A stretch of 64,000 nucleotides of DNA from Ruania zhangjianzhongii (GTDB lineage: Bacteria > Actinomycetota > Actinomycetes > Actinomycetales > Beutenbergiaceae). The translations under genes and the position numbers were made by a program. Within the stretch, counting starts at the first letter, position 1. Every line of letters starts with the position of its first letter. Location of the stretch: the NCBI RefSeq assembly GCF_008000995.1, contig NZ_CP042828.1:2408882-2472881 (forward strand), read 5' to 3'. Positions 40,613 through 57,450 of the stretch are shown here, piece by piece. Below the pieces are notes generated by a model. The model saw only the letters and a list, made by a program, of their open reading frames with translations, did no database searches and had not been told where the DNA came from.

Positions 40613-41206
40613 CCTGCCAACCTCTTCCCCTGTGCCGGTACGGGTTCCGCGGGCTCTGAGATGCCGGTGCGCCGCTCCGCTGCCGCCGACTCTCATCCGT
40701 GTTGGATTCCAACTCTAGAATCGTGCACGATTTCTAGCGGACATAGTCTCTCGTCCGATCGGTCGCGTCAACCCCTCGTTTCACGACGACGGCCGCCTGC
40801 AGGTTGGGGACGGACGATCGACGGTGCTGGCGTGCGGAGTAGCGGCGGGCACGTCGGCTTGCCGTCTCGCACTGCCGGACTGTGAATCTCCAGGTAGTGA
40901 AATCGGGTAGGCGACAGCGATTCTCGTTAGCTGTCACGCCGCTGCGACCTCACCGAAACGCCGGCCACGCCCGCCCAGCCGGCACCACGCCAACCAGCAC
41001 GACAGCCGTCGCAGCGCGCACCACCCAGTCCAGCCCGGCGACTCGCAGAGTGCCCAGCCGCAGGGCTCAGGCGTCCGGTGCGCTCTAGGTGAAGCCCTTG
41101 GTCTCCAGCGGCTCGATCGGCCTGCGCACGTTCACCGCCGTGCTGAGGAAGATCGGGGAGAAGCCCCCGGACGGCTGACGGAGACTGACGTGGACTCGAG
41201 ATGCCG
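40613..41206. promoter_or_regulatory. Gap with operator of the second TRAP operon and coding debris
   Basis: AATCGTGCACGATT (40719-40732) is a perfect 14-bp palindrome inside CTAG arms (40715-40718, 40734-40737), about 105 bp before the RraA start; it is the likely operator/promoter of the TRAP-2 operon, perhaps for the GntR(FCD) protein at 30879. Farther right, 41088-41180 read leftward encodes IFLSTAVNVRRPIEPLETKG with GC-rich third positions, ending in a stop; it may be the tail of a lost gene, but I do not recognise it. The rest shows nothing else. Confidence 0.5.
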
Positions 41207-42652
41207 CTAGTGCACCAGTTCGTTCCACCACTCGCGCGAGCTCAGTAAGACCTCTGTACGCCACGCGGCCACTCGCGCGAGGAGGGCTGTCTTGACCTCC
41301 GCAGCGTCCGGGTTGTCCCACAGGTCGTGCAGCTCTTCCGGATCGGCCTCCAGGTCGAAGAGCTGGCCGTCGTCGGCATCGGTGAAGCACACCAGCTTCC
41401 ACCGAGCGTCGGCGATCATCGTCATCATCTCGGAGTCCTGCTGGATCGAGTCTCGTGCCTGCTCGGCGAAGACGTAGTCCCGGCTGTTCCACTCCGAATC
41501 GCCCTGGAGGACCGGGAGCACCGAGCGGGCTGCAACTCCCGGACGCTGTTCGATCCCGGCAAGCTCCAGGATCGTAGCGCCGAGGTCGAAGTGCGAGATT
41601 GGGGTCTTGATGGGTTCCCGTGGCTGGATATACGCCGGCCCGTGCACGATCGCGGGGACGCGCACGCTCGGGTCGTACATGGTCCACTTCTGCGACAGGC
41701 CGTGGTCATTGAGTGCATCACCGTGGTCGGAGGTAAAGATCACGACGGTGTCCTCCAGGACACCACGTCGCTCGAGCGCCTCGAACAGTTCCCCGATCTG
41801 CTCATCGATGAGAGTCACGTTGGCGTAGTAGTGCGCCCGCTGACGGCGGAGCTGTTCCGGCGTCGGATTCTCCAGGTGAACGATCGAGTCGTGGTCATTG
41901 CTGAGGTGCTCGCGTCGCACGGTGGCGATCTGCGGGGGCATGGCGGCGAACTCCTCGGAGGTGCGCACGACCGGCGGCAGCTCCCGGTCGGCATACTGAT
42001 CGATGAGCCGCTGCGGCGCGTCGTAGGGCGGATGTGGCCCGGGGAAGCCGATCTGCAGGAAGAACGGCTCCTCGCCCGGGTACTCCTCCAGCCAGCGGCA
42101 GGCGAGCGAGCCGACGAACGCGTCCGCGTGCAGGTGCTCGGGCAGCGTCCACTCGAAGGCGCCCAAGCGTTCCTGGTAGTCCGGACGGGAGCGGAGGGTC
42201 CGCCGATCAGGCTTGACCACACCGCTGACATGCAGTGCCTTGTCCCAGTTGTCGAAGAAGAACGGCACGGTCGGCGTGCCACGGTCCTTGTTCTCCACCA
42301 CGTGCCGTTCGTGGAACCCGGTCGGGGCCTCGTACGGGTAGGTGTGCATCTTGCCGATGCTCACGCACCGGTAGCCCGACCCGGACAGGTCCTCGACCCA
42401 GGTCCGTGGCCAGGGGTCGTCGTTGCGGAAGACACCGTTGCCGGACGGGTACAGCCCGGTGAAGAAGGAAGCGCGAGAGGGTGTGCAGGACGGCGCGGTC
42501 ACGTAGTTGCGCTCGAAGGCCACACCCTCGGAGGCGAGCCGGTCCAGATTCGGCGTCACCATGTGCGGGTAGCCGAGGGCGGCGATCGTGTCGTACCGCT
42601 GCTGGTCGGTCATGACCAGCACCACGTGGGGTCGTCGCCCGGACGTGGTCAT
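41207..42652 (-). CDS. Sulfatase (Cys-type, choline-sulfatase/iduronate-sulfatase-like)
   Basis: 481 residues, no signal peptide. The N-terminal metal strand MTDQQRYD, formylglycine motif CTPSR with Cys56, and FTSDHGDALNDHGL are all present. The pattern MTDQQR is common in microbial carbohydrate and choline sulfatases and phosphonate hydrolases; CTPSR supports a sulfatase. Encoded four bases inside the DeoR gene's end (ATGA overlap), so one leftward transcript with the regulator, divergent from the ABC-aldolase-kinase operon. It likely desulfates the sugar imported by that system. Confidence 0.85.
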   Translation of the reverse strand: MTTSGRRPHVVLVMTDQQRYDTIAALGYPHMVTPNLDRLASEGVAFERNYVTAPSCTPSRASFFTGLYPSGNGVFRNDDPWPRTWVEDLSGSGYRCVSIGKMHTYPYEAPTGFHERHVVENKDRGTPTVPFFFDNWDKALHVSGVVKPDRRTLRSRPDYQERLGAFEWTLPEHLHADAFVGSLACRWLEEYPGEEPFFLQIGFPGPHPPYDAPQRLIDQYADRELPPVVRTSEEFAAMPPQIATVRREHLSNDHDSIVHLENPTPEQLRRQRAHYYANVTLIDEQIGELFEALERRGVLEDTVVIFTSDHGDALNDHGLSQKWTMYDPSVRVPAIVHGPAYIQPREPIKTPISHFDLGATILELAGIEQRPGVAARSVLPVLQGDSEWNSRDYVFAEQARDSIQQDSEMMTMIADARWKLVCFTDADDGQLFDLEADPEELHDLWDNPDAAEVKTALLARVAAWRTEVLLSSREWWNELVH

Positions 42653-43476
42653 CGGGCGTCTCCATCGGTCGTCGCATCACAGTGGATGGTGACCTGGTTC
42701 TCCGCCAAAGCGTCCGCGACGTCCTCCGGTGGCAACGCATCCGTGACAAGGTCGTGGGCCGCGTCCAAAGGTGCCACGAGCGCGAACTGGGGCCGGTTGT
42801 ACTTCGTTGCGTCCGCCACCACGATCACCCGGGAGGATCTGCTGATCAGGTGCCGCATCATGGAGGCCTCGGCAAGCGTGCTCACCGAGTACCCCTCCAC
42901 GGTGATTCCACCGACGCCGATCACGGCGACGTCGAAGTGCACCGAGCCTGGGTTGCCCAGGTCCGGGAACGCCGCCGGGCCGACGGTCACCTGCGAGGAG
43001 AAGCGGACGTCGCCGCCGAACACGTAGAGGTTGCGCACCGCCTGTGGCGGGATCTCGAACGGGATGCTGAGGTTGTTGGTGGCTACGGTCAGTTCCCGGT
43101 GATCGGTGAGACTGCGTGCGACGGCCAAGGTCGTCGTTCCGCCGTTGAGCGCTGCGACCGCGCTGTTGTTGATCAGCGTCGCTGCGAGCGCTCCGATCCG
43201 CTTCTTTTCCACGTCCTGGAGCTGTTGGCGGATCCGCAGCTCGCGGTCGGGACTGTTCACCGCCGAGTTGGCTATCGCGCCGCCGCGGGTGCGGGCGACG
43301 AGCCCGTCTTTGTCCAGCGCGATCAGGTCGCGGCGGATGGTGTCGGGGGAGACGTCGAACTCCCCGGCAATGTCATGGATGCTGGCCTGACGCATCGATT
43401 CCACGTAGGTGGCGATGCGCGCACGCCGCATCGCTGGCAGCTCCGTGCCCCCTGTCTCTGCAGACTCTGCACTCAC
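42649..43476 (-). CDS. DeoR-family transcriptional regulator
   Basis: 275 residues from GTG 43474-43476 (CTCGCAG upstream); the longer reading has no support. DeoR HTH RIATYVESMRQASIHDIAGE...FDVSPDTIRRDL at about 20-60, then the sugar-phosphate isomerase-like sensor domain (NGGTTTLAVARSL, VIGVGGI). DeoR proteins sense phosphorylated sugars, so the effector is probably an intermediate made by the downstream aldolases/kinases. Divergent from the ABC operon; an inverted repeat lies in between. Confidence 0.9.
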   Translation of the reverse strand: MSAESAETGGTELPAMRRARIATYVESMRQASIHDIAGEFDVSPDTIRRDLIALDKDGLVARTRGGAIANSAVNSPDRELRIRQQLQDVEKKRIGALAATLINNSAVAALNGGTTTLAVARSLTDHRELTVATNNLSIPFEIPPQAVRNLYVFGGDVRFSSQVTVGPAAFPDLGNPGSVHFDVAVIGVGGITVEGYSVSTLAEASMMRHLISRSSRVIVVADATKYNRPQFALVAPLDAAHDLVTDALPPEDVADALAENQVTIHCDATTDGDAR

Positions 43477-43640
43477 CTGCGAGTTCTCCCTCGTTGCGTC
43501 GCCGATTGTCCTGGTCAACGTACCGCGGTCGATCCACGCCAGGTGGCGTGATGCAGACGATCGTGCCCTGTGCGATGCCGAATCGCGGCATCCGCACGTT
43601 GGCACCTAGCGGCACTTTCATGCATGTTCTGTGCCGACTC

Positions 43641-43666
43641 TTGCATAGAGGTGCAGAACTATGCAA
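43641..43666. promoter_or_regulatory. Inverted-repeat operator in the DeoR/ABC divergent region
   Basis: TTGCATAG (43641-43648) and CTATGCAA (43659-43666) are perfect 8-bp arms with a 10-base spacer. More TGCAT half-sites stand nearby: CATGCATG at 43618-43625 and CATGCA at 43691. Multiple half-sites are typical of DeoR-family operators. The cluster is about 100 bp before the binding-protein start and 165 bp before the DeoR start. The 288-bp gap holds no gene. Confidence 0.55.
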
Positions 43667-43764
43667 CTATCGACCACTGCTTCGGCACAACCATGCAGGT
43701 CTCGACAGTCACGGATGACGTCCATGCGCTGCCGAGCCACAACCAGCTAGTCATGGAGGAAGTT

Positions 43765-45063
43765 ATGAACAGCGCTGTTCGTTCGCGTAAGACCTCGCGG
43801 CGCCATCCGAGCCAGGTCGGGCTCGCCCTGCTCGGCGTCATTGCCCTGGCCGCCGGCTGCGGCGGTGGCGGCGAGGGTGGGGGAGCCGACGGGGAAGTCA
43901 CCATCGAATTCATGCAGTGGTGGGAGCCCGAGCTTCCCGATGGCGCCTTCCAGTCCCTCATCGATCAGTTCGAGGAGGAGAACCCCGGCATCAACGTGGA
44001 GGTCCTTTCCGGTCCGTACGCCTCCATCAAGGACCAGGTCATCGCCGGGTCGGCGTCGGGCACGATGCCGGACGTCCTGGGCCTGGACGGTGCCTGGGTG
44101 AACGACTTCGCCACGCAGGGCTCCATCGCGAACCTCAGCGAGGCGATGTCCGAGGCCGGCTACGACGACTCCCAGCTGGCCGCACAGGTCCAGATGGACT
44201 CGTCCACCTACATGATCCCGGTGGTCAACTTCGCCTATCCGATGTTCGTGAACAACGAGCTTCTCGAGGAAGCGAACGTCGAGGAGATTCCCACCACTCG
44301 CGGTGAGTTCGTCGACGCGGCGCAGGCCGTCACCGACGCCACCGACGCCAGTGGCTTCGTCGCCGCACTCGGTCTGGAGAAGCCGAACGGTGTGCAGATC
44401 GACATCTTGCCGTGGGCCTGGGCTTCCGGCGCCACGATGTTGACCGAGGACGGCGCTCCTGCGATCAACAACCCCGACATCGTCGAGAACATCGAGTTCA
44501 TCAAGAGCATGTGGGATGACGGGCTGATCGTCCCGGGCGGGCTGACCATGGCCGAGCAGGACAAGGTCGAGGAGTTCACGAACGGCCGTGTGGCGATGAT
44601 GATCTCCTCCCTGGCGCACATCAACCTGATTCGGGAGAACAACCCCGACCTGGATTTCTCGGTCGCTCCGGTTCCGGTGACTGAGGGCTACACCGGCGAG
44701 TCCGGTGTCCGGTACGCCTCCTGGGGCATCGGGATGTCGGCCAGCACCGAACACCCCGAGGAGTCCTGGAAGCTCATCGAGTTCCTGCTCAGCGAAGGCG
44801 CGAACGGTGAGCTCGCCGGATACGCCAACGGCTTCCCCGGCAACGTGAACGTCACCCCGGACTTCAGTGACTCCGACCCGCTGTTCGAGGACGCGTTCGA
44901 GATCTGGCAGGCCGGGTACCCGGTGAGCGAGTTCACCGGGCTGCCGATGGCCGATGAGCTGATGCGAGTCCTGGACGAACAGCTCCAACAGGTGCTCGCC
45001 GAGGACAGACCGGTGGACGACGCACTGGGTGACGTCCAGACCGAGTGGGAAGGGATGTTCTAG
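43765..45063 (+). CDS. Sugar ABC transporter substrate-binding lipoprotein
   Basis: 432 residues from ATG 43765 with GGAGGA just upstream. Lipobox LAAGC with Cys about 33 (preceded by RRHPSQVGLALLG). Family-1 binding protein: FMQWWEPELPDGAFQSLIDQ, EENPGINVEV, YASWGIGMSAS. Possibly sugar or oligosaccharide; DeoR control suggests a hexose derivative. First gene of a seven-gene rightward operon (ABC importer, aldolases, kinases, SDR). Confidence 0.9.
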   Translation: MNSAVRSRKTSRRHPSQVGLALLGVIALAAGCGGGGEGGGADGEVTIEFMQWWEPELPDGAFQSLIDQFEEENPGINVEVLSGPYASIKDQVIAGSASGTMPDVLGLDGAWVNDFATQGSIANLSEAMSEAGYDDSQLAAQVQMDSSTYMIPVVNFAYPMFVNNELLEEANVEEIPTTRGEFVDAAQAVTDATDASGFVAALGLEKPNGVQIDILPWAWASGATMLTEDGAPAINNPDIVENIEFIKSMWDDGLIVPGGLTMAEQDKVEEFTNGRVAMMISSLAHINLIRENNPDLDFSVAPVPVTEGYTGESGVRYASWGIGMSASTEHPEESWKLIEFLLSEGANGELAGYANGFPGNVNVTPDFSDSDPLFEDAFEIWQAGYPVSEFTGLPMADELMRVLDEQLQQVLAEDRPVDDALGDVQTEWEGMF

Positions 45064-45167: not shown

Positions 45168-46058
45168 ATGGCGAACCGGCGACCGACCGGCCACTCCAAC
45201 GCAGCGGCCTACGCCTACCTGTCTCCGACGATCGTCCTGCTGGTGGTCCTGATGGCGATCCCGATCGGGATGGTCATCTGGTACTCGCTGCAGAACAACG
45301 TCATCACCAACGCCAACCCGCAGTTCGCCGGATTCGAGCACTACGTCACGATCTTCACCGACCCGCAGTTTCACGCGGCGGTTCGCAATACCGCGGTCTT
45401 CGTCATCGCGTCGGTCGCGGCGCACATCGTGCTCGGGATCGGCTTCGCCGTGCTGTTGAACACCGACCTGCTCCCGAACGGGGTCAAGACTGCCTTCCGG
45501 ACAATCTTCGTGCTGCCGTGGTTACTGACCGTCGCGATCGTCGCCGTGCTCTGGCGACTGATCCTGAACCCGAGCGGTGTCTTCAACTACCTGCTCACCC
45601 AGGTCGGCATCATCGACGGTCCCAAGGAGTGGCTCTCCGATCCCAGCCTTGCGCTGTTCGCGGTCACCCTGATCAACATCTGGTACGGCTACCCGTTCTT
45701 CATGGTCAGCATCCTCGCCGGCCTGCAGGGCATCTCCGCCGACCTGTACGAGGCGGCTTCCGTCGACGGTGCGGGCCCGATACGCAGGTTTGCCTCGATC
45801 ACGATCCCGCAGCTGCGCCCGATCATCATCTCGATGACGCTGCTCGACCTGATCTGGACCTCTCACCAGTTCGCCCTGATCTGGATGACCACGGGCGGGG
45901 GACCACTGGACCGGACCGAAATCCTCTCCACGTACACCTACAAGCTCGCCTTCTCCCAATACATGTTCTCGACGGCGTCCGCTTCCGCAGTCTTCTTCCT
46001 GGTGGTCTCGGCGCTGCTGGCCATCCTCTACGTCCGGCACCAGCGAGCGAGGGACTGA
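45168..46058 (+). CDS. Carbohydrate ABC transporter permease (MalF-type)
   Basis: 296 residues from ATG 45168; the 105 bp upstream hold no gene. Six helices; EAA loop LYEAASVDGAGPIRRFASITIPQLRP. Followed by the MalG-type subunit after 3 bases. No ATPase gene in the operon, so a shared MsiK-type ATPase is probable. Confidence 0.9.
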   Translation: MANRRPTGHSNAAAYAYLSPTIVLLVVLMAIPIGMVIWYSLQNNVITNANPQFAGFEHYVTIFTDPQFHAAVRNTAVFVIASVAAHIVLGIGFAVLLNTDLLPNGVKTAFRTIFVLPWLLTVAIVAVLWRLILNPSGVFNYLLTQVGIIDGPKEWLSDPSLALFAVTLINIWYGYPFFMVSILAGLQGISADLYEAASVDGAGPIRRFASITIPQLRPIIISMTLLDLIWTSHQFALIWMTTGGGPLDRTEILSTYTYKLAFSQYMFSTASASAVFFLVVSALLAILYVRHQRARD

Positions 46059-46061
46059 CCG

Positions 46062-46976
46062 ATGACCACAACCACCACCCAGACTGCGCAGACCACCGCA
46101 AGGACGGCCGTCGGGCAGGGAAAAGAACCCAGCAGACTGACCAACCAGCAGCGCCGACGTATCGCACGGGGACTCACCCTGGTGGGCCTTGTCCTCGGCG
46201 CACTGTTCGCCGGCTCACCGATCCTGTGGATGCTGGTGTCCGCATTCAAGGCCAACCCCGAGATCTTCGCCTACCCGCCGCAGCTGATCACGGAGAACTC
46301 GTCCCTGCAGCCATTCCTGGCGATCCTGCAGGACCCCCGCCAGATGCGGTTCTTCTTCAACTCCTACGTCGTGGCGCTGTCCGTCGTGGCACTAACCCTG
46401 CTGGTCGCCGTGCATGCGGCCTACGCCTTCAGCCGGTATGACTTCCCCGGGAAGAACATCGTCAACGTGCTGGTGATCGCCGTGCAGGCAGTGCCGCCGA
46501 TCACGCTGCTCATCCCGTACTTCGGGCTGATGGTGGTGCTCGGGCTCTACGACACCTATGCCGGTCTGATCCTCACCTACATCGTGTTCACCCTGTCCTA
46601 CGCGATCATCATGATGACCGGGTACTTCAACACGCTCCCGCGGGAGCTGGACGAGGCCGCCCGAGTCGACGGCACCTCCTCGTTCGGCGCGCTGTGGCGC
46701 ATCCTCATCCCGATCGCGGTGCCCGGGCTGGTCTCGGTGGGGCTGTACACGTTCATGATCGCGTGGAACGAGTACCTGTTCGCGCTCACCCTCACGCGCA
46801 CCGATGACATGCGCACCGTCCCGATCGGCATCCAGCTGCTGATGGGCCAGCACTCCTACGACTGGAACCAGATGATGGCGATGAGCGTGCTCGGCTCCCT
46901 GCCGGTGATCGTGCTGTTCATCTTCTTCCAACGCTTCTTCATCGGCGGCATGACGTCCGGCTCTGTGAAGAACTGA
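46062..46976 (+). CDS. Carbohydrate ABC transporter permease (MalG-type)
   Basis: 304 residues. Basic Thr-rich cytoplasmic start, six helices, EAA loop LDEAARVDGTSSFGALWRILIPIAVPG and typical C-terminus FIGGMTSGSVKN. Pairs with 45168-46058; same operon as the aldolase and kinase genes downstream. Confidence 0.92.
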   Translation: MTTTTTQTAQTTARTAVGQGKEPSRLTNQQRRRIARGLTLVGLVLGALFAGSPILWMLVSAFKANPEIFAYPPQLITENSSLQPFLAILQDPRQMRFFFNSYVVALSVVALTLLVAVHAAYAFSRYDFPGKNIVNVLVIAVQAVPPITLLIPYFGLMVVLGLYDTYAGLILTYIVFTLSYAIIMMTGYFNTLPRELDEAARVDGTSSFGALWRILIPIAVPGLVSVGLYTFMIAWNEYLFALTLTRTDDMRTVPIGIQLLMGQHSYDWNQMMAMSVLGSLPVIVLFIFFQRFFIGGMTSGSVKN

Positions 46977-47012: not shown

Positions 47013-47879
47013 ATGACACTCATCTCCGGCGCCCGGATCCTCGGACCTGCGAGCGAACACGGGTTCGCCGTACCTGCGCTGAACCTGTCCGACTACGGCA
47101 TGCTGATGGCGGCGTTCGAGACCTGCGAGGAGTTGAAATCGCCCCTGATGGTGGCCCTTGGTCCGAAGGAGGGCCGCTGGATCGGTGAGGACTTCATCCC
47201 CGCGATCCTGCGCCGTGCGGAGCGAAGCAGCATCCCTGCTGTGCTGCACTGGGATCACGGCGCCTCGCTGGCGGAGGTGGTCCGCGCCATCCGGCTCGGC
47301 TATACGTCGGTGATGATCGACGCGTCTCTCGAGCCGTTCGAGCAGAACGTGGAGATCACCAGCAAAGTGGTAGAGATCGCCCATGCCGCCGGTGTCTCCG
47401 TGGAAGGCGAGCTGGGCACGATCGGCAAGATCACCGGCGCTGATGAGGGCGGCACCGACGACATCCTCTACACCGTGCCGGCCGAGGCGAAGGAGTTCGC
47501 CGAACGCACCGGGATCGACTCGCTGGCCATCGCGATCGGCACCCGGCACGGCATCTATCCGAAGACCCTCAAGCCGGAGCTGCGGCTGGAGCTGTTGGAC
47601 GAGATCGATGCCCTGCTGGACATCCCCCTCGTGCTGCACGGCGGCTCAGACAACCCGGACAGCGAGATCCGCGAGGCCTGCCAGCGCGGGATCAACAAGG
47701 TCAACATCTCCTCCGACATCAAGAAGGCCTTCTACGGCGGTATGCGCACGGTCTTGGAGGACCACAGCCTGCTCGATCCGCGCCTGATCGTTCCCACCGC
47801 CATGGACGCTGCCAGCGAGCTTGTCCGGCACAAGGTCGACCTGTTCGGCTCCGCCAGCACCACTAGCTACTACAACTGA
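47013..47879 (+). CDS. Class II ketose-bisphosphate aldolase-like protein (first of a tandem pair)
   Basis: 288 residues. Zinc and catalytic sites of class II aldolases: HWDHGAS (Asp81, His82), EGELGTIGK (Glu133), IGTRHGIY (His179), LHGGSDNPD (His209) and KVNISSD (Asn231, Asp235). The usual LHGGSG phosphate loop is GGSDNPD here, which hints at an unusual substrate. It cleaves a phosphorylated ketose to a triose phosphate plus an aldehyde. Followed after 19 bases by a paralogue. Both are downstream of the sugar importer. Confidence 0.88.
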   Translation: MTLISGARILGPASEHGFAVPALNLSDYGMLMAAFETCEELKSPLMVALGPKEGRWIGEDFIPAILRRAERSSIPAVLHWDHGASLAEVVRAIRLGYTSVMIDASLEPFEQNVEITSKVVEIAHAAGVSVEGELGTIGKITGADEGGTDDILYTVPAEAKEFAERTGIDSLAIAIGTRHGIYPKTLKPELRLELLDEIDALLDIPLVLHGGSDNPDSEIREACQRGINKVNISSDIKKAFYGGMRTVLEDHSLLDPRLIVPTAMDAASELVRHKVDLFGSASTTSYYN

Positions 47880-47898
47880 TCCACCGAAAGGAACCCAC

Positions 47899-48759
47899 GT
47901 GCTGCTCACCGGAAACGAGCTCCTCCAGCCCGCCGCTGCGAACAACTTCGCCGTGCCGGCCTTCAACATCAGCGACTACTCGATGATGAACGCCGTGTTC
48001 GAGGCCTGTGAGGAGAAGAAGTCCCCGCACATCATCGCGATCCACCCCGACGAGGTCGCGCACATCGGGAGGGACGTGCTGCCCGCGATCATCGACCGCG
48101 CCAGGGTGTCCTCGGCGCCCACCGCGATCCATTGGGATCACGGCGCCACCTTCGAACAGGCACTGCAGGCGATCCAGTACGGCTTCACCTCGGTGATGAT
48201 CGACGCGTCCCTCGAGCCGTTCGAGGAGAACGTGGCGCTCTCGAAGCGCGTAGTGGACGTGGCCCACGCGGTGGGCGTCTCGGTGGAGGCCGAGCTGGGC
48301 ACGATCGGCAAGACCGACGGCTATGCGGAGGCCGGCACCGACGACATCATCTACACCGTGCCGGCGGATGCGGTGCGATTCGTGCAGGAGACCGGGGTGG
48401 ACTCGCTTGCGGTGGCGATCGGTACCCGACACGGCCTCTATCCCTCGACGCTCACGCCAGAGCTGAAGCTTGACCTGCTGGACGAGATCGACGCGGCCGT
48501 GGACGCCCCGCTGGTACTGCACGGCGGCTCGAACAACCCCGATGCCGAGATTCGGGAGGCGTGCCGGCGCGGCATCAACAAGGTCAACATCTCCTCAGAT
48601 ATCAAGGTGGCCTACTTCCAAGCGATGCGGGAGGTGCTGCGGGATACCGGCCACCGCGAGCCGAACGTGATTCAGCCGCCCTGTGAGGCGGCGCTGAAGA
48701 CCGTGGCCGCAGCGAAGATCGACCTGTTCGGCGCTGCCGGCAAGGCCTCGCTCTACTGA
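47899..48759 (+). CDS. Class II ketose-bisphosphate aldolase-like protein (second of a tandem pair)
   Basis: 286 residues from GTG 47899. Same layout as its neighbour: HWDHGAT (Asp80, His81), EAELGTIGK (Glu132), IGTRHGLYP (His178), LHGGSNNPD (His208), KVNISSD. All catalytic residues are kept in both copies, so they may act on two epimers (like Gat/Kba and Fba) or form a heteromer. The GGSNNPD loop again differs from the usual GGSG. Distinct enough from copy 1 to be an old duplication. Confidence 0.88.
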   Translation: MLLTGNELLQPAAANNFAVPAFNISDYSMMNAVFEACEEKKSPHIIAIHPDEVAHIGRDVLPAIIDRARVSSAPTAIHWDHGATFEQALQAIQYGFTSVMIDASLEPFEENVALSKRVVDVAHAVGVSVEAELGTIGKTDGYAEAGTDDIIYTVPADAVRFVQETGVDSLAVAIGTRHGLYPSTLTPELKLDLLDEIDAAVDAPLVLHGGSNNPDAEIREACRRGINKVNISSDIKVAYFQAMREVLRDTGHREPNVIQPPCEAALKTVAAAKIDLFGAAGKASLY

Positions 48760-48763
48760 GGCC

Positions 48764-49969
48764 GTGATGGGTGCGGAGTCCGAGGTGCTGCTCGGGATGG
48801 GCGGCTGTGTGGATCACGAGGTGCGCTGGGACGCGGCCGTGATCGAGAAACTGGTGCGTGAGCACCGGATCTCCGCCGCTGAGCTCTCCGAGCCGGGGCA
48901 TCCGGGTGAGGGCGGCAGCGTGCACGGCGAGCGCGAGATGCTCCTTGTGCTGCTCTCCCAGCTCGTCCGGGGCAGCGGGAGCGAGCGCTTCGTTGATGAG
49001 CCGACGGCGTTGCTCACGTTCTCCCGCAGGTTTCCGGTTCGCAAGAGCCTGGGTGGGTCCAGCGTGCGCGCCGCCGTCGCGCTGGACCGCCTCGGCTTGT
49101 CCTCGACGCTGCACCTGGTCTCGATTGACGACGACGTTCGCCGTCTGCTGCCGCGCTCCGCGACGTACATGTGCAGTGCGAGGCTGGACTCGACCCACCC
49201 GCACGTGATCGTGCAGTACCCAGCGGGCGCGCGCGTACGGGTGGGCGAGGAGGTTTTGGAGGCGCCGCAGGCCAACCGGCTCATCTTCGTGAACGATCCG
49301 CCGAACTCCGAGCTCCGGATCGCACCAGAGTTTGGCTTGGCCGTGAGTGCTGCCCGGGTGATCGTGATCTCCGGGTTCAACACGATGGCCGGTCTCGAGG
49401 CGGTGGGCGAACGCGCGGGACAGGTGCGCGAGCATCTGGCCGGGCGCACCCCTGGCGCCGTGGTGGTGTACGAGGACGCAGGGTTCCACCACGATGATCA
49501 ACGAGAGGTGGTGCTACGGACCTTGCGTGACGGCGTCGATATCTGGTCCATGAACGAGGACGAGGCGCAGCATTATCTGGGCCGGGAGCTGGACCTGCTT
49601 GACCCGGCTCAGGTCGTGACTGCGGTGGACGAGCTGCACGATCTCGTGACGGTCCCGACCCTGGTCCTGCACACTCGATACTGGGCGCTCGCCCACGGAC
49701 CCAGAGATCTTCGCGCAGCCTTGGCTTTGGGAATCTCGACGGCGAGCGCACGGTACGTCCATGGCGATGACTGGCAGCCCACTGAGCGGGATGCGATTGC
49801 CGGCATGTCCGCGACTGGGGAGGCGGAGCGCGCGGCAGCGGACATCGAAGCCGGGCTGGGCAGTACGGCGGTGGCAGCCGTGCCTGGGCTGGAGGTCGCC
49901 GAGCCCACGACGATCGGCCTGGGCGATACCTTCCTCGGCGGACTCGTGGCCGGGCTGGTGCAGTCATGA
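48764..49969 (+). CDS. ADP-dependent sugar kinase-like protein (ADP-PFK/GK superfamily), first of a pair
   Basis: 401 residues (ATG 48767 is an alternative start). Ribokinase-like fold: RRFPVRKSLGGSSVRAAVAL is the substrate loop with the Gly pair, VVVYEDAGF and WSMNEDEAQHYLG (NxxE, residues 264-267) correspond to the HxE/NxxE metal motifs, and TIGLGDTF (Asp388) is the GXGD catalytic motif of the ADP-dependent glucokinase/phosphofructokinase superfamily. Such kinases are mainly archaeal; bacterial members are few and little studied. It follows the aldolase pair by four bases and overlaps the second kinase-like gene (ATGA). The phosphoryl donor (ADP or ATP) is not known. Confidence 0.68.
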   Translation: MMGAESEVLLGMGGCVDHEVRWDAAVIEKLVREHRISAAELSEPGHPGEGGSVHGEREMLLVLLSQLVRGSGSERFVDEPTALLTFSRRFPVRKSLGGSSVRAAVALDRLGLSSTLHLVSIDDDVRRLLPRSATYMCSARLDSTHPHVIVQYPAGARVRVGEEVLEAPQANRLIFVNDPPNSELRIAPEFGLAVSAARVIVISGFNTMAGLEAVGERAGQVREHLAGRTPGAVVVYEDAGFHHDDQREVVLRTLRDGVDIWSMNEDEAQHYLGRELDLLDPAQVVTAVDELHDLVTVPTLVLHTRYWALAHGPRDLRAALALGISTASARYVHGDDWQPTERDAIAGMSATGEAERAAADIEAGLGSTAVAAVPGLEVAEPTTIGLGDTFLGGLVAGLVQS

Positions 49970-51264
49970 CCGAGACTTCCTACCGAGCTGCGCGGACGGT
50001 GCACGAGTGGGCGGGGTTCTATCACGCGCTCGTGGTCCGCCGATCGGCGTTGGTGGCCGGCGCGGGCCCGATCGTGACCGGGTTTTCCGCGACCACCGAT
50101 GCCCTGCACCGGATCACCGGCGCCTCGCTCACGCGGCTGCTCACCGCGGGGCCGAGCGGGTCCGAGATCTTCGATGCAGGGCTGGGGACGTTGGGGGGCT
50201 GGCTGGCGGAGGGACGCGACGGTGAGTTGTTCATCGACGATGTGGGCGGCGAACCACTCCTCGAGGCGCTGGTCGGCATGGCCGAGAAGGTGCAGTGCGG
50301 TGGCACATCGGTGCAGGCGTCATGGAGCTGGTCCCAGCTGGGGCTGCACCCCCTGCTCGCCCTGCTGAACCGCAACCCTCGGCAGCTCGGGGCCACTCCC
50401 GCAGGGGTGCGCTTGGCCACTGCTGACGGCGGGGTGCCGGTGCACAGCATCACTCCGGTGGCGGGCATGAGCGTGCCGTCGAACCATGTTCTGGAGCTGT
50501 CGGCTGGCCTCACCGGCGCAGGGGTCCAGGTACAGCGTTCGAGTCGCATCACCGTGGTCTTCGCCCGCAAACGCCTCCAGCTGGACGAGGCATTTCTCAG
50601 AATCTCGCCGAGCGCCGTACGCGGTGGGGTAGGCATGGTGTCCGGACTGAATGGCCTCGGCCGTGCGCGCGAGAAAGTATTGCCGATCGTGGCCGACACG
50701 GTGGCGGCGTGGAACGATGGCGGTGCCCGCCTGGTGCACCTGGAGCTCGCCGAGTACGCGAGCCCCGGCGAGCTGGCGCAGGTGATGACTGCCGTGGGGC
50801 CGCACGTGCACTCGGTGGGGATGAACGCGAGCGAGCTGGAGCGGCTCGTGGGTGGGGGAGACCCGGCACAGCGCGCCGCCGAGTTCGCCGCGGCGCACGG
50901 GCTGCTCCGGGTGGTGGTGCATGGCGACCACTGGGCAATGAGCGTGCACCGCGCCGATCCTGAGCGTGAGGAACTGGCGCTGGGTGCGGGCAGCTTGGCG
51001 GCTGCCAACCGCGCCGCGAACGGTGAGCCGCAGGCCGAATGGGCCGTGCCCGTGCGGGCGCGATTCTCCTCGGAGCTACCCGTGGCCGGTCGTCTGGACG
51101 GCGGTTACCGGATGACCATCGTTGCCACGCCCTATCTGACCACGCCGAGATCCACGATCGGGCTGGGGGACACCTTCGTCAGCGGTGACCTGCTGGTGCA
51201 GGCCAACCCCCTCGATCTGAACCGACACAGGAGAACACTTTCATGGAACACCCGCAGACCCTGA
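49966..51264 (+). CDS. ADP-dependent sugar kinase-like protein (ADP-PFK/GK superfamily), second of a pair
   Basis: 432 residues. VHLELAEYA (HxE, His258/Glu260) followed by VHSVGMNASELERL (NxxE, Asn287/Glu290) is the exact order seen in ADP-dependent glucokinases/phosphofructokinases, and TIGLGDTF (Asp402) is the catalytic motif near the C-terminus. Together with its tandem relative upstream it may form a heteromer or phosphorylate two positions to give a bisphosphate for the aldolases. Shares little obvious sequence with the first copy outside the motifs. The 3' end overlaps the SDR gene by 22 bases. Confidence 0.72.
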   Translation: MTETSYRAARTVHEWAGFYHALVVRRSALVAGAGPIVTGFSATTDALHRITGASLTRLLTAGPSGSEIFDAGLGTLGGWLAEGRDGELFIDDVGGEPLLEALVGMAEKVQCGGTSVQASWSWSQLGLHPLLALLNRNPRQLGATPAGVRLATADGGVPVHSITPVAGMSVPSNHVLELSAGLTGAGVQVQRSSRITVVFARKRLQLDEAFLRISPSAVRGGVGMVSGLNGLGRAREKVLPIVADTVAAWNDGGARLVHLELAEYASPGELAQVMTAVGPHVHSVGMNASELERLVGGGDPAQRAAEFAAAHGLLRVVVHGDHWAMSVHRADPEREELALGAGSLAAANRAANGEPQAEWAVPVRARFSSELPVAGRLDGGYRMTIVATPYLTTPRSTIGLGDTFVSGDLLVQANPLDLNRHRRTLSWNTRRP

Positions 51265-52001
51265 CTGGCCGCCGCGTGATCGTCACTGGGGGAGGAGTCG
51301 GCATCGGCCTGGGCATCGTTCGGCAGTTTGCTGCCGCCGGTGCGCAGGTGGCCCTCACCACCCACAGCCGCGCCGCCACGGACGTGGTGCAGACCTTGGC
51401 CGGTGGCGGACTGACGGTGATCGGTGCTCAGCTTGACGCCACCGACAGTGCTCAGGTGAACACGGTGGTCGACGATCTGGCAGCGAATCTTGGCGGGCTC
51501 GACGTGGTGGTGAACAACGCCGGCGGACTGGTCGGCCGGCACACGTTCGCAGAGACCAGCGATGAGCACTGGGCCACGGTGTGGAGCGTGAACGTGACCT
51601 CGGCGTTCTACGTCTCCCGCGCCGGGCTGCGGCACCTGGGCGAGGGCGGCCGGATCATCAACATCTCCTCGCTGGCCGGGGAGAACGGGGGCGGAAACGG
51701 CTCGGGCCCCTATGCCACCTCGAAGGCTGCGGTGGACGGGCTGACCCGTGCACTGGCGAAGGAAGTGGCGCCGGCGGGCATCACGGTGAATTCCATCGCG
51801 CCGGGGCTGATCCTGGACACGCCGTTCCACGAGACCTTCACCCCCAAGGCTGCCCAGCAGCAGACCATCGCCGGGATCCCGGTGGGCCGGCCCGGCTATC
51901 CGGCCGACGTGGCAACGGCCGCGGAGTACTTTGCGCGGCTCGACTCGGGCTTCGTGACCGGTACGGTGCTGGACCTGAACGGGGGAGTGCACTTCTCCTG
52001 A
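51243..52001 (+). CDS. Short-chain dehydrogenase/reductase (SDR)
   Basis: 252 residues. Cofactor motif TGGGVGIGLG (15-24), NNAGG (91-95), active-site Ser142/143, Tyr157 and Lys161 in YATSKAA. Classical SDR, reducing or oxidising a keto or hydroxy group with NAD(P). Last gene of the ABC-aldolase-kinase operon; may interconvert sugar and ketose forms before phosphorylation. No signal peptide. Confidence 0.9.
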   Translation: MEHPQTLTGRRVIVTGGGVGIGLGIVRQFAAAGAQVALTTHSRAATDVVQTLAGGGLTVIGAQLDATDSAQVNTVVDDLAANLGGLDVVVNNAGGLVGRHTFAETSDEHWATVWSVNVTSAFYVSRAGLRHLGEGGRIINISSLAGENGGGNGSGPYATSKAAVDGLTRALAKEVAPAGITVNSIAPGLILDTPFHETFTPKAAQQQTIAGIPVGRPGYPADVATAAEYFARLDSGFVTGTVLDLNGGVHFS

Positions 52002-53081: not shown

Positions 53082-54476
53082 TCACCCGGCCCTCACCACA
53101 TCCCACAGCGGCGTTGCCGGAACGAACTGCCCGTGCGCGCCCGTCGCCACGAAGTCACGATCCCGGACGACTGCCTCCCCGCGAACCAGCACCGTGACCG
53201 GCAGGCCACGGATCTCCCGGCCCTCGTACGGGGTGTAGTCGGTGGCCATGTGCAGCGTGCTTGTGCCCACCGTGGCGGTCGCTTCTGGGTCCCAGATCGC
53301 CAGGTCCGCATCTGAACCGGGTGCGATCAGTCCCTTGCGTGGGTAGAGGCCGTTCAGCCGCGCCGGGGTGGTGGCGGTGAGGTCCACGAACTGGGTCACC
53401 GGCATCAGACCGGACGAGACGAACTCGCTGAAAGCCACGGGCAGTCGAGTTTCGACGCCGGGTAGCCCGTTCGGCATGGATCGCACGTCATGCTTGGTGA
53501 GGAGCTTCTGCTCGGTGTCGTAGCAGCAGTGGTCGCTACCGATCGTGGAGACCCCGCCGGTCAAGAGCTTGCTGCGCAGCCCCTGCACGGTGCGCGCCGA
53601 GCGCAGCGGTGGGCAGCACACGAACCGCTCGGGGTGCTCGGCGGAGTACTCGCTCTCATCCAGGGTGAGATGGTGCACCACGGCCTCCCCGTACGCCTGG
53701 CGGCCCTCGCTGCGAGCGTGCTCCACGAGTGCGACGGCTTCCGGGGTTGACTGGTGCACGAAGTACACCGGTGCGCCCGCATGCTCGGCCAGCGCGAGCA
53801 CCGCCGCCACGGCTGCGGACTCGGCAAGCTCCGGGCGGGTCTCGTGGTGGTGCCCGGCGCTGATGTCTCCGCTGCGCGCGACCTGGTCCTGGGTGTCCTC
53901 CACGATGGTGTTGGCCTCGCAGTGCACGTAGACCATGCCGCCGAGCGGGCTCAGGTGCTTCATCGTGCGCAGGATGGTCTCTTCGTTGGCCATCGTCTCG
54001 TCGCGGTAGGTGGTGAACAGCTTCACCGTCACCACCCCTTCACCCACCAGCTGGTCCAGCTGCGCCCCGGTGCTCTCGTCCCAGTCCACCACGCAGGCAT
54101 GCAGCGCGCTGTCGCAGAAGCCTTGCGTCGCCTGTGCCCGCTGACGGTGCACGGCATCGACCACGCGTTCGCCGCGGGTCGGGATACCGAAGTCCACGAT
54201 CGTGGTGGTACCGCCGTGGACCGCAGCCCTGGTCGCGGCCGGATAGTCATCGAGCGTGGTGAACTCACCGGAGGTGAAGCCCACGTGGCAGTGCGGGTCC
54301 ACCCCGCCGGGGAGCACGAGCATCCCGGTGGCGTCCACTTCGTCATTGCCCGACGGCGCATGGCCGGGTTCGGTCAGCGCCGTCACCCGGCCCTGGCTCA
54401 CGCAGATATCGGCGCGCACGATCGAGTCGGCGTTGACCACCTCACCGCCGCGGACCACCAGGTCTGGTCGGCTCAC
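53082..54476 (-). CDS. Dihydropyrimidinase/hydantoinase-type amidohydrolase
   Basis: 464 residues. Binuclear metal site: DPHCHVG (His62, His64), carboxylated Lys152 in VTVKLFTTY, His185 in YVHCEAN, His241 in FVHQST and Asp315 in TIGSDHCCYD. All ligands of D-hydantoinase/dihydropyrimidinase are present. It opens a cyclic amide (hydantoin, dihydropyrimidine or similar lactam). Last gene of a nine-gene operon with an amino-acid/opine importer; starts inside the preceding gene (ATGA), hence tightly coupled. The natural substrate is uncertain. Confidence 0.9.
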   Translation of the reverse strand: MSRPDLVVRGGEVVNADSIVRADICVSQGRVTALTEPGHAPSGNDEVDATGMLVLPGGVDPHCHVGFTSGEFTTLDDYPAATRAAVHGGTTTIVDFGIPTRGERVVDAVHRQRAQATQGFCDSALHACVVDWDESTGAQLDQLVGEGVVTVKLFTTYRDETMANEETILRTMKHLSPLGGMVYVHCEANTIVEDTQDQVARSGDISAGHHHETRPELAESAAVAAVLALAEHAGAPVYFVHQSTPEAVALVEHARSEGRQAYGEAVVHHLTLDESEYSAEHPERFVCCPPLRSARTVQGLRSKLLTGGVSTIGSDHCCYDTEQKLLTKHDVRSMPNGLPGVETRLPVAFSEFVSSGLMPVTQFVDLTATTPARLNGLYPRKGLIAPGSDADLAIWDPEATATVGTSTLHMATDYTPYEGREIRGLPVTVLVRGEAVVRDRDFVATGAHGQFVPATPLWDVVRAG

Positions 54477-54868
54477 GCGTTCTCCCGCTCGGCCAGGTAG
54501 GCACGCCAGCCGCCGTGCTCGGTGATCTCCACCGTTCCCTCGGCTTCGATCGCCTCGGTGCGCATCACCATCGACAACGAGCCGGTACCGTCCTCGAGCT
54601 CAATGATGCTCAGCTCCAGCTCGGGCGGCTCCAGCGGCAGCAACTCGCTGCGCAGGGCCGCGTAGGAGACCTCGTACAGCTCTCCGGCGATCGAGGACCC
54701 ACCCCGCTCCGCCCAGGACAACCCCGGAAACTCCGCCCGCACCGAGTAGAAGCGGTACGCGGCCGCGGTGGTTGCCGCACCCAGGAAGCGCGCGTTGCGC
54801 AACCCGGAGCTGATCGATCCGCCGGACATCGCCTGCCCGTTCACGAACATCTTCACCAGTTCCATCAC
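54473..54868 (-). CDS. Allophanate-hydrolase C-terminal-domain-like protein (gamma-glutamylcyclotransferase fold)
   Basis: 131 residues. MFVNGQAMSGGSI near the start and FPGLSWAERGGSSIAGELYEVSYAAL are the hallmark of the C-terminal domain of allophanate hydrolase (AtzF-type), here as a stand-alone protein. In AtzF that domain decarboxylates the N-carboxyurea intermediate. No amidase domain is attached and no urea carboxylase is in the operon. It overlaps the hydantoinase gene by four bases, so it may help with the hydrolysed product. Catalytic role unclear. Confidence 0.7.
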   Translation of the reverse strand: MMELVKMFVNGQAMSGGSISSGLRNARFLGAATTAAAYRFYSVRAEFPGLSWAERGGSSIAGELYEVSYAALRSELLPLEPPELELSIIELEDGTGSLSMVMRTEAIEAEGTVEITEHGGWRAYLAERENA

Positions 54869-54886
54869 AACTCCTTCGTCAGTGCC

Positions 54887-56047
54887 TCAGCGCTGGTGCG
54901 CTACGGCTTCGAGTTCCAATCGATCCACGCCCAGGTCGGCCACCGGTTCTGCGGGGCGGTTTCCTTCCACCAGGTCACGCAGCACGTGTCCCCACAGCGG
55001 AGCGAGGGTGAACGCGTACGTGCCGCCGGCCACGAAGAACCCCGGGCTGGAGGGCACCTCGCCGATCACGGGCATCTCGTCCGGGGTGGCGGCCAGCGGC
55101 CCCGCCCAGGTCCGCAGCAGGCGTAGCTCCCGTAGCACCGGCAAGATGGCCGCGGCCTGATGCAGGTTCCCGCTGATGCTCTCGGTGGCAACGCGACTGC
55201 GACCTTCACTGCGGAACTCGGTGGCTGGCCAACCACCGCCGATCAGGATGTTCCCCGCCGTCACCTGCTTGACCGACATTCCCGCGCCGATGTGCTGCAC
55301 CAGGCAGCTCAACGTCCGTGGCGGCATCCGGGTGGTGATGTGCATCTGGATCGCCACCGGGCTCATGTCCAGCGCGATCCCGGCCAGGGCCGCCACATCG
55401 GCGATCCACGGACCCGCCGTGTCGATCACCGCGGCGGCCGACCACGCCCGGTGACTCGACCGCACCACGTACGCTCCGCCGTCGCGCTCGATAGCGGTGA
55501 CCGGGCTGAAGGCTTCCACCTGAGCACCGTGCCGGCGGGCCGCGGCCAGGTAGGCGGGAGTCACCAGCAGTGGGTTGGCGTACCCGTCCTCGGCGCACCA
55601 CTCCGCGGCGATCACCGATTCGGACAGCGCCGGCATCCGCGAACGGGCCTCGTCACCGGAGACGATCTCGCAGGACAGCCCGAGTTCGAGCTCCACGGCC
55701 AGCTTGGCGTGCAGCTCGGCGACCTGGTCCGGCGTCTCGGCCACCATGAACCCACCGTTACGGGTGAGCTCGATATCGGCATCCAGCTCGTCCGGCAACG
55801 CTGACCACATCGCCGATGCGGTGCGCTGCAGGGGCAGGAAGCGGAGATTGTCCGCCGCCACTGCCTGGCCAGGTCGTTTGGTGTGGATGCCCTGGATGTG
55901 CAGGTTGCCGGCCGTGGTCCCTGAACCCTCGCGGTTCGGTGCTCCTCGTTCGAGCACGGTGACCTGGTGACCGGCTCGAGCCAGTTGGTAGGCCGCCGAG
56001 GCCCCGAGGATCCCACCGCCGATCACCACCACGTCGGTCCTGATCAC
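54887..56047 (-). CDS. FAD-dependent amine/imino-acid dehydrogenase, HcnC/DadA/LhpB-like subunit
   Basis: 386 residues from GTG 56045-56047, overlapping the stop of the HcnB-like gene (GTGA). DVVVIGGGILGASAAYQLARAGHQV is the FAD site (here cited at residues 5-29); GYANPLLVTPAYLAAA and VAGGTYAFTLAPLWG fit the DAO family. In hydrogen-cyanide synthase, opine oxidases and D-hydroxyproline dehydrogenase this subunit oxidises the C-N bond. Part of a predicted heterotrimer with the next two genes. Confidence 0.85.
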   Translation of the reverse strand: MIRTDVVVIGGGILGASAAYQLARAGHQVTVLERGAPNREGSGTTAGNLHIQGIHTKRPGQAVAADNLRFLPLQRTASAMWSALPDELDADIELTRNGGFMVAETPDQVAELHAKLAVELELGLSCEIVSGDEARSRMPALSESVIAAEWCAEDGYANPLLVTPAYLAAARRHGAQVEAFSPVTAIERDGGAYVVRSSHRAWSAAAVIDTAGPWIADVAALAGIALDMSPVAIQMHITTRMPPRTLSCLVQHIGAGMSVKQVTAGNILIGGGWPATEFRSEGRSRVATESISGNLHQAAAILPVLRELRLLRTWAGPLAATPDEMPVIGEVPSSPGFFVAGGTYAFTLAPLWGHVLRDLVEGNRPAEPVADLGVDRLELEAVAHQR

Positions 56048-57450
56048 AGCTGCCTCTCCTCCATGGCCATCGCGGCGCGCACCGGGATCGGCTTCACCGG
56101 CATCCGGGCCGGCTGGCAGCCGACAGGTTCGCCGGTGCACGCCGAGACCAGGCAGGAGACGGTGCTGGCGCACTCGCGCCCTTGGCACGGACCCATACCG
56201 GCGCGAGTGGCGCCCTTGACCCCGTTCCGGTCATTCCAGCCGAGCCGGGCAGCTGTGCGAATCTCCCCGGCGGTCACGCTCTCGCAGCGGCAGACCATCG
56301 TGTGGTCGGGCATGGCCAGCATCGGCTCCCGGTCGTGCGCATACAGGTCGCTGGTCAGCCGGCTGAAGTCGTCCAGTCGGCGGGACCGTCGTTCATACCT
56401 GCGCACCGCCCGCTCCGGCGGTGCGGACAACCCCAGCTCCTCCCGAATCGTCGCCGCGGCGAGCCAGCCACGCACCTGGGCCCCCTTGCTGCCGGCGATC
56501 CCACGAGCCTCGCCGACGGCGTAGACCCCCGGGGCACTGGTCGCGCCCCGGGCGTCCGTGTCTGGGATGGGCACCCCGAGCTCGGGGTCGAGGCTGCACT
56601 CCACCTCCAGCAGCTGCAACAGCTCGGTGGCGGGGCGGAACCGGACCGCGGTGGCCAGGGTGTCGACGTCGAACGAGCGGTTGCCGGTCGTAGTCGCGAT
56701 GCTGACCGTGCGTAGCCGCCCGTCGGGCCCCGCGGTGGATTCACTCACGTGTGCGCCCTGGAGGATCGGCACCCGGTGCCGGGCCAGCACGGTCAGGTAC
56801 CGGGCCAGCTCGCCCAGCATGCCCGGATGCGCGGCGGCGCCGAGGGCGCGCGCCGACGGCCGCAGCGGCCTGCCCGCCTCGACCACCGCGGCTACCTCGC
56901 TGCCGGAGGCGAGCACGGCGCAGGCCACCGGCAACAGGAACGGACCGCTCCCGGCGATCAGCACCCGCTGACCCACCCGCACCACATCGGTGGTGGCCAG
57001 GTGCATCGCATGCCCGGGGGTGATCACCCCGGGCAGCTGCCAGCCCGGAAACGGGAGTACGTGCTCGGTGGCGCCGGTCCCCACCACGATCGCCCGGGCG
57101 GTGAACCGCACCGCATCAGGGCTGGTGGTGGAGGTGGTCAGCAGCGCCCGGTCCGGCGTGGTTCCCCACACCAGCCGGTTGGTGTGCACCTGCACCCCAG
57201 CCTGGCGAACCTGCGCGATCAGCGCGGTCCCGGCGGGGCGGAAATCACCGTGCCGGGCCAGCACCTGGCCGCGGCGGCGCTTGTAGTACTGGCCGCCCAG
57301 CTCGGCGCTCTCCTCGATCAACGCCACCCGAGCCCCCGCCGTCGCCAGTTCTCTGGCGGTGACCAGACCGGAGGGGCCGCCACCGACGACGACCACGTCA
57401 TAGTCGAGGTGACTGGGAGCGGCCGCGGGCTGTGGGTCAGTCGTGGACAC
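56044..57450 (-). CDS. FAD/NAD-binding oxidoreductase with [2Fe-2S] tail, HcnB/OoxA/LhpE-like subunit
   Basis: 468 residues. Two dinucleotide-binding motifs: VVVVGGGPSGLVTARELA near the N-terminus and VLIAGSGPFLLPVACA in the middle. The C-terminal BFD-like [2Fe-2S] site has Cys387, Cys389, Cys422 and Cys427 (VCRC...GPCQGREC). Homologues are the alpha/A subunits of opine, nopaline and D-hydroxyproline dehydrogenases. Overlaps the HcnA-like gene by 14 bases. Confidence 0.88.
   Translation of the reverse strand: MSTTDPQPAAAPSHLDYDVVVVGGGPSGLVTARELATAGARVALIEESAELGGQYYKRRRGQVLARHGDFRPAGTALIAQVRQAGVQVHTNRLVWGTTPDRALLTTSTTSPDAVRFTARAIVVGTGATEHVLPFPGWQLPGVITPGHAMHLATTDVVRVGQRVLIAGSGPFLLPVACAVLASGSEVAAVVEAGRPLRPSARALGAAAHPGMLGELARYLTVLARHRVPILQGAHVSESTAGPDGRLRTVSIATTTGNRSFDVDTLATAVRFRPATELLQLLEVECSLDPELGVPIPDTDARGATSAPGVYAVGEARGIAGSKGAQVRGWLAAATIREELGLSAPPERAVRRYERRSRRLDDFSRLTSDLYAHDREPMLAMPDHTMVCRCESVTAGEIRTAARLGWNDRNGVKGATRAGMGPCQGRECASTVSCLVSACTGEPVGCQPARMPVKPIPVRAAMAMEERQL

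Follow-up and report, generated by a model that had tools for sequence, protein, structure and literature searches.

Two kinase-aldolase modules of the ADP-dependent kinase family in a probable sugar-catabolism operon of Ruania zhangjianzhongii

Introduction

What would two relatives of the ADP-dependent sugar kinases be doing beside two aldolases in an actinobacterial operon? Adenosine diphosphate (ADP)-dependent sugar kinases are usually viewed as upper-glycolysis enzymes of archaea (and animals). A stretch of 64,000 nucleotides from Ruania zhangjianzhongii (GCF_008000995.1, contig NZ_CP042828.1, positions 2,408,882 to 2,472,881 of the forward strand; hereafter the window, whose numbering is used throughout) carries at 47,013–51,264 the genes of two class II aldolases, aldA and aldB, followed by those of two kinase-like proteins, kinA and kinB. 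A first-pass annotation, made from the sequence alone, took these four genes for a single unit of duplicated kinases and duplicated aldolases. Here we show that the block is two modules, in each of which a kinase has its own aldolase, and we hold it somewhat better than an even chance that the locus is a sugar-catabolism operon in which two independent pairs work in parallel, converting a ketose to its 1-phosphate and then to dihydroxyacetone phosphate (DHAP) and an aldehyde.

The components of such a system are known. The occurrence of ADP-dependent kinases in bacteria has been stated in general terms (PMC7948494), and a 2025 review that tabulates prokaryotic glucose kinases places ADP-glucokinase under Archaea only (PMC12965863). 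The ADP-using phosphofructokinases of cyanobacteria belong to the unrelated PFK-A family (PMC11609450; PMC12965863). The coupling of kinase and aldolase is undescribed in the searchable literature: we found no pathway joining a PF04587 or ADP-dependent kinase to a bacterial aldolase operon in the literature searched, although subscription papers fell outside its coverage and absence there is not proof.

Results

Family and fold of the kinases

The genes kinA (48,764 or 48,767 to 49,969, plus strand) and kinB (49,966–51,264, plus strand) overlap by the four bases ATGA, and their products score 67.3 and 49.1 bits against the Pfam family ADP_PFK_GK (PF04587; cut-off 27, hmmscan). AlphaFold models of the two (predicted local distance difference test, pLDDT, 94.8 for kinA and 89.2 for kinB) have a two-domain fold that is closest to the ADP-dependent glucokinases and phosphofructokinases (ADP-GK/PFK) and not to the ATP-dependent ribokinases. 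Foldseek places ADP kinases at ranks 1–22 for both models, and the first ATP kinase trails them by about six orders of magnitude. When aligned with VIA-align, the kinA model matches the Thermococcus litoralis ADP-glucokinase with Z 36.2 (root-mean-square deviation, rmsd, 2.7 over 384 residues) and the kinB model that of Pyrococcus furiosus with Z 40.3 (rmsd 2.5 over 396 residues), whereas the best ATP-type kinase reaches 24.3 and 23.2 respectively.

Searched singly against the PDB, kinA returned no kinase and kinB weak kinase matches only. Profiles built from 33 kinA-type and 20 kinB-type sequences converged on one set of 14 distinct PDB sequences (best E 1.6e-20 and 1.1e-48). Every member of this set is an ADP-dependent kinase, and these were the only matches at E up to 0.01. 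The two sets match one another over their full length at 1e-60; PfkB kinases from the same loci give a partial match only. The superfamily placement made in the first-pass annotation is thus borne out, since both proteins pass the PF04587 cut-off and both models rank solved ADP kinases above all ATP kinases, and open reading frames (ORFs) were found where it had positioned the genes.

Active sites

Roles for the ADP-, metal- and sugar-site residues were taken from a study of AncMsPFK (PMC7948494), whose numbering we follow. The Asp of GXGD, the beta-phosphate-binding Arg206, the metal-linked Glu282 (the Glu of HxE), the NxxE motif and the ribose-binding His360 are invariant in 53 of 53 bacterial sequences; NxxE and TIGLGD are present in both kinA and kinB, and the HxE motif of kinB, HLE, recurs in all six actinobacterial kinB sequences. 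These are features, along with a whole-length fold, that both proteins share with the enzymes of T. litoralis and P. furiosus, AncMsPFK and mouse ADPGK, from which they differ in their low identity (approximately 12–21%), in their sugar-site loops (GGxxxR in kinA, GGxxxQ in kinB), in the missing His of HxE in kinA and in the residence of their genes in catabolic operons with aldolases. ADP is, on the basis of sequence, the likely phosphoryl donor.

At the sugar site, a glucokinase-type His replaces the phosphofructokinase Asn in 33/33 kinA-type rows, while Glu90, a residue of glucokinases and bifunctional enzymes, is kept in all 33 kinA-type and in 16 of 20 kinB-type rows. Lys179 and Arg212, which are confined to phosphofructokinases and bind the phosphate of fructose-6-phosphate, occur in no kinA-type row and were not seen in kinB (the acceptor-site His of kinB was assigned by its motif, HVLEL, as the alignment there is shifted by one column). 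The presence of the glucokinase-type His and Glu90, combined with the loss of the phosphate-binding residues, points to an unphosphorylated sugar as the acceptor.

The aldolases

The aldA (47,013–47,879, plus strand) and aldB (47,899–48,759, plus strand; GTG start behind AAAGGAA) products match F_bP_aldolase (PF01116) in full, at 283 and 302 bits, and retain the motifs HWDHG, VEGELG/VEAELG, GTRHG and LHGGS, so that the earlier description of two paralogues with all catalytic residues stands. Its claim of an unusual phosphate loop (GGSDNPD and GGSNNPD) does not: the solved Escherichia coli AgaY aligns GASDVPD at this position, and GGSxNPD is common to relatives. In catalytic motifs, GGSxNPD-type loop and full-length match the pair resembles the group comprising AgaY/KbaY, GatY, YdjI and PRK08185, but here its partner is an ADP-family kinase. 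The nearest NCBIfam subfamily for both is PRK08185 (367 and 376 bits, cut-off 405), which bears the name 'hypothetical protein' and has no assigned function. The C-terminal Arg of AgaY (GSANR) was considered as a sign of a second phosphate site; the window's aldolases have GSAST and GAAGK, and ordinary-looking aldolases from the same loci end in GSVGK, so this residue is not diagnostic.

Two separable modules

Homologues were gathered from one scan of genome contigs and from searches in the window's own family, in Actinomycetaceae, in Lachnospiraceae and in a broad actinobacterial sample. Within the window's own family 11 of 24 genomes had a PF04587 match, as did 14 of 200 in Actinomycetaceae and 32 of 397 (about one in twelve) in Lachnospiraceae; among the 396 of the broad sample, the window's own genome was the sole match. 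The superfamily, previously described as mainly archaeal and eukaryotic, is therefore not rare in these bacterial groups. We read 57 neighbourhoods from Actinomycetota and Bacillota, and a class II aldolase accompanied the kinase in 55 of them, within 1.5 kb in 52. As a control, the archaeal-like PF04587 genes of other Bacillota had neither this aldolase nor this importer in any of 10 loci, several of which end at contig edges.

Each kinase keeps to one aldolase. The closest relatives of aldB sit directly ahead of kinA genes, while aldA groups with the aldolases of loci having kinB only (Shimodaira-Hasegawa-like approximate likelihood ratio test, 100). A pair of aldB and kinA, hereafter module A, occurs without kinB behind its own importer in 21 of the actinobacterial loci sampled. 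Conversely, aldA and kinB with a short-chain dehydrogenase/reductase (SDR) gene stand without module A in two loci, L046 and L047, whose genomes (G416 and G415) each have module A elsewhere. The fused arrangement, with aldB-kinA between aldA and kinB, is found in the window and three relatives (L003, L044 and L113). Hence the coupling of kinases to aldolases in a catabolic operon with an importer, as first proposed, is upheld and the four genes do co-occur, but not as one unit. A kinase tree unites kinA with its Bacillota relatives (support 100), apart from kinB, from a second Bacillota type and from the archaeal and mouse references; the tree was made by a quick method and the exact placement of kinB is unsure. 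A recent tandem duplication of the kinases was accordingly rejected, and by their sequences kinA and kinB are old, separate lineages.

Neither an obligate heteromer nor a pair of obligate successive kinases, the alternatives offered in the first-pass annotation, sits well with pairs that each occur alone and kinases that belong to different old clades. Were one sugar to receive two phosphates, from kinA and kinB, and then be cleaved as a bisphosphate by the aldolases, as in the tagatose and fructose bisphosphate routes, one would expect the overlapping genes, the common operon of the four fused loci and the kinship of the aldolases with bisphosphate aldolases; yet the 21 and two loci with a lone pair, and the lack in kinA-type rows of the Lys and Arg with which ADP-phosphofructokinases bind phosphate, make this unlikely. 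A single heteromeric kinase with one regulatory subunit would suit the ATGA overlap and the divergence and long branch of kinB, but with catalytic residues kept in both proteins, and each found without the other, it is extremely improbable.

Two other groups of Bacillota genes were observed in passing. Around 6% of the sampled Bacillota have strong PF04587 genes (L144–L153), some with two copies per genome and without aldolase neighbours. These belong to the same Pfam family as kinA and kinB but are much closer to its profile, at 200–260 bits, and are possibly bacterial ADP-dependent glycolytic enzymes. The second Bacillota kinase type (L090–L095, L099 and L104) is accompanied by an RbsABC-type importer and often by xylulokinase, RpiB-like and triosephosphate-isomerase-like genes, which suggests another pentose or tetrose pathway around the same kinase-aldolase core.

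The host operon

The complete locus consists of sulfatase and DeoR genes on the minus strand, followed on the plus strand by a binding protein, two permeases, aldA, aldB, kinA, kinB and the SDR. The DeoR-family repressor (42,649–43,605, minus strand; Pfam DeoRC and HTH_DeoR), which probably has an internal true start, is divergent from the operon. Between it and the binding-protein gene lies a 32-bp element (43,640–43,671, plus strand), a probable DeoR operator/promoter in which three TGCA-type half-sites recur at intervals of about 11 bp. All six kinB loci have the element at this place and the other loci read lack it; its pattern has one match in the 5.1 Mb genome and none in shuffles. As the pattern was derived from those six loci, independent evidence comes only from its single occurrence in the genome and from its absence in the other loci. 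The ATP-binding cassette (ABC) importer comprises a sugar-binding lipoprotein (43,765–45,063, plus strand; longest ORF from 43,570) that matches solved maltose/sugar-binding proteins, permease 1 (45,168–46,058, plus strand; longest ORF from 45,045), whose position ahead of the aldolases is conserved, and permease 2 (46,062–46,976, plus strand). Permease 2 is 84% identical to its counterparts in the two kinB-only loci, against 63–75% in kinA-only actinobacterial loci, and the DeoR genes beside kinB operons are 66–74% identical to that of the window. Because the 32-bp element is shared, and the importer and DeoR are closer to those of kinB-only loci, comparison identifies the operon as the kinB module (module B) serving as host, with module A inserted.

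The SDR gene (51,243–52,001, plus strand; adh_short_C2, 189 bits), which overlaps kinB by 22 bases, is the third kinB-module gene, being found in 6/6 kinB loci, while all other loci scored below 150 bits. The type I sulfatase (41,207–42,652, minus strand; Pfam Sulfatase, 183 bits) has a CTPSR formylglycine site, and a maturation enzyme of the formylglycine-generating (FGE) type is encoded in the genome. It is an accessory of the kinB module, present in four of six kinB loci and absent from every other locus read, so the sulfatase linkage first ascribed to the whole operon holds for this module and only in part. Beside the sulfatase, at 39,950–40,696, is an RraA-like protein (PF03737). Further downstream, 53,082–57,450 appears, from an ORF reading only, to encode a hydantoinase-like amidohydrolase and a flavin adenine dinucleotide (FAD) oxidoreductase pair resembling hydroxyproline/opine oxidase subunits.

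The host genome has two contigs, 5.1 Mb, completeness of 100% and contamination of 0.72%; with these values, and the same arrangement in relatives, contamination is an unlikely source of the locus. Nor is the gene set a product of chance, given full-length profile and fold matches that are kept in many genomes. Elsewhere the genome carries an ordinary gene of the PfkA family and another two for class II aldolases, and the genes of this locus would therefore be dispensable for plain glycolysis.

Isomerase neighbours and the sugar

Beside module A, loci of the window's family encode a ManA-like cupin and many of those in Actinomycetaceae an AGE protein resembling D-mannose isomerase; Bacillota loci of both kinase types often have a D-lyxose isomerase, some with a mutarotase. 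All of these isomerase-type assignments lie below NCBIfam equivalog cut-offs. That this place is taken by three unrelated types of aldose-ketose isomerase suggests, as the substrate of the kinase, a ketose derived from a mannose- or lyxose-like aldose. The cupin adjoins kinA (8,622–9,632 in L041; 4,139–5,206 in L043), matches TIGR00218 weakly (57.7 bits, cut-off 116) and is possibly a new ketol-isomerase. Among the genes labelled, most kinA-only actinobacterial loci have no second sugar kinase.

The logic of isomerase, kinase and class II aldolase yielding DHAP is also that of sulfoglycolysis of the sulfo-Embden-Meyerhof-Parnas (sulfo-EMP) type, in which a sulfosugar, once isomerised and phosphorylated, gives DHAP and sulfolactaldehyde on cleavage. 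A variant of it at this locus would agree with the AGE-family isomerase (PF07221), as in YihS, and with the weak match of the binding protein to SmoF. However, known sulfofructose (SF) kinases belong to PF00294 and PF00365 (PMC9594981) and not to PF04587, sulfatases act on sulfate esters rather than sulfonates, and the scanned neighbours, the annotation of which was not exhaustive, showed no sulfoquinovosidase, SqvB or SqvD; we consider this variant very unlikely. Sulfo-EMP2 (SqvD, SqiK, SqiA), which shares this order of reactions, was rejected as an identity for the locus because its SF kinase, SqiK, belongs to PF00365 (PMC9594981); sulfosugar hallmark genes were likewise not seen here among the neighbours scanned.

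Discussion

A free-sugar kinase and a class II aldolase make the cleavage of a ketose-1-phosphate to DHAP and an aldehyde the simplest chemistry. In the pathway that we propose, module B (DeoR, operator, ABC importer, aldA, kinB and SDR, often with the sulfatase) would be the host, with module A lying between aldA and kinB. A free ketose would be supplied by an isomerase for module A, or perhaps by the SDR for module B; the kinase would phosphorylate it, with C1 as the probable position and ADP as the probable donor, after which the aldolase would split the product into DHAP and an aldehyde. The two pairs would run side by side, each taking one of two related sugars, or one of two forms of a single sugar, delivered by a shared importer.

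Several observations weigh against this proposal. The NCBIfam ADP-glucokinase equivalog PRK14039 scores kinA and kinB at 35.6 and 33.9 bits against a cut-off of 387. With the cut-off so far from reached, neither would be a canonical ADP-glucokinase, kinA being by its sequence a divergent relative inside PF04587, and so either the substrate is presumably not glucose or the proteins have drifted. HxE had been credited to both kinases together with NxxE and TIGLGD; the latter two hold in both and HxE in kinB, but kinA reads VYE, with V, L, I or F in place of His, and Glu kept, in 33/33 kinA-type rows. The long branch of kinB in the kinase tree makes an altered activity possible, and the literature searched yielded no assayed enzyme from either clade. 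An obvious aldose-ketose isomerase is missing from the vicinity of all fused loci but one, L113, which has an AGE-family gene. Some Lachnospiraceae clusters also have PfkB or xylulokinase genes, allowing a second phosphorylation there. Several Lachnospiraceae loci lie outside the simple model: beside a single kinase they have two class II aldolases that are unlike each other, each retaining catalytic motifs (L103, 7,508–9,400; L109, 6,266–9,240; L110, 6,516–9,370; L111, 4,843–6,600; L112, 5,692–8,710; L126, 1,788–4,840).

The departure of kinA from HxE, and the distance of both proteins from the ADP-glucokinase equivalogs, would be expected if kinases with this fold had turned to ATP or another donor in an otherwise identical pathway, and sequence alone cannot show such a cofactor switch with certainty. 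Against this stand the ADP beta-phosphate Arg and ribose His, invariant throughout the 53 sequences, and top fold matches that are all ADP enzymes; we therefore regard another donor as doubtful, if a serious possibility. The parallel use of ADP by two kinase-aldolase pairs remains our preferred reading.

The pairs, which recur across gut and soil bacteria, probably represent an undescribed route of sugar breakdown. We give an even chance to the broader proposition that Actinomycetota and Bacillota share a family of catabolic pathways that use ADP to phosphorylate a free ketose ahead of retro-aldol cleavage, through anciently separate kinase lineages each with its own aldolase. If true, the ADP-kinase family would have a role beyond glucose and fructose-6-phosphate. 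Nearly all of the 57 neighbourhoods read couple the PF04587 relative with a class II aldolase, and most also with an importer. The fixed gene set would offer an entry point for solving a sugar pathway of gut and soil bacteria, a lead to the function of the PRK08185 aldolases, and a direct test of whether ADP is spent instead of ATP in bacterial sugar catabolism.

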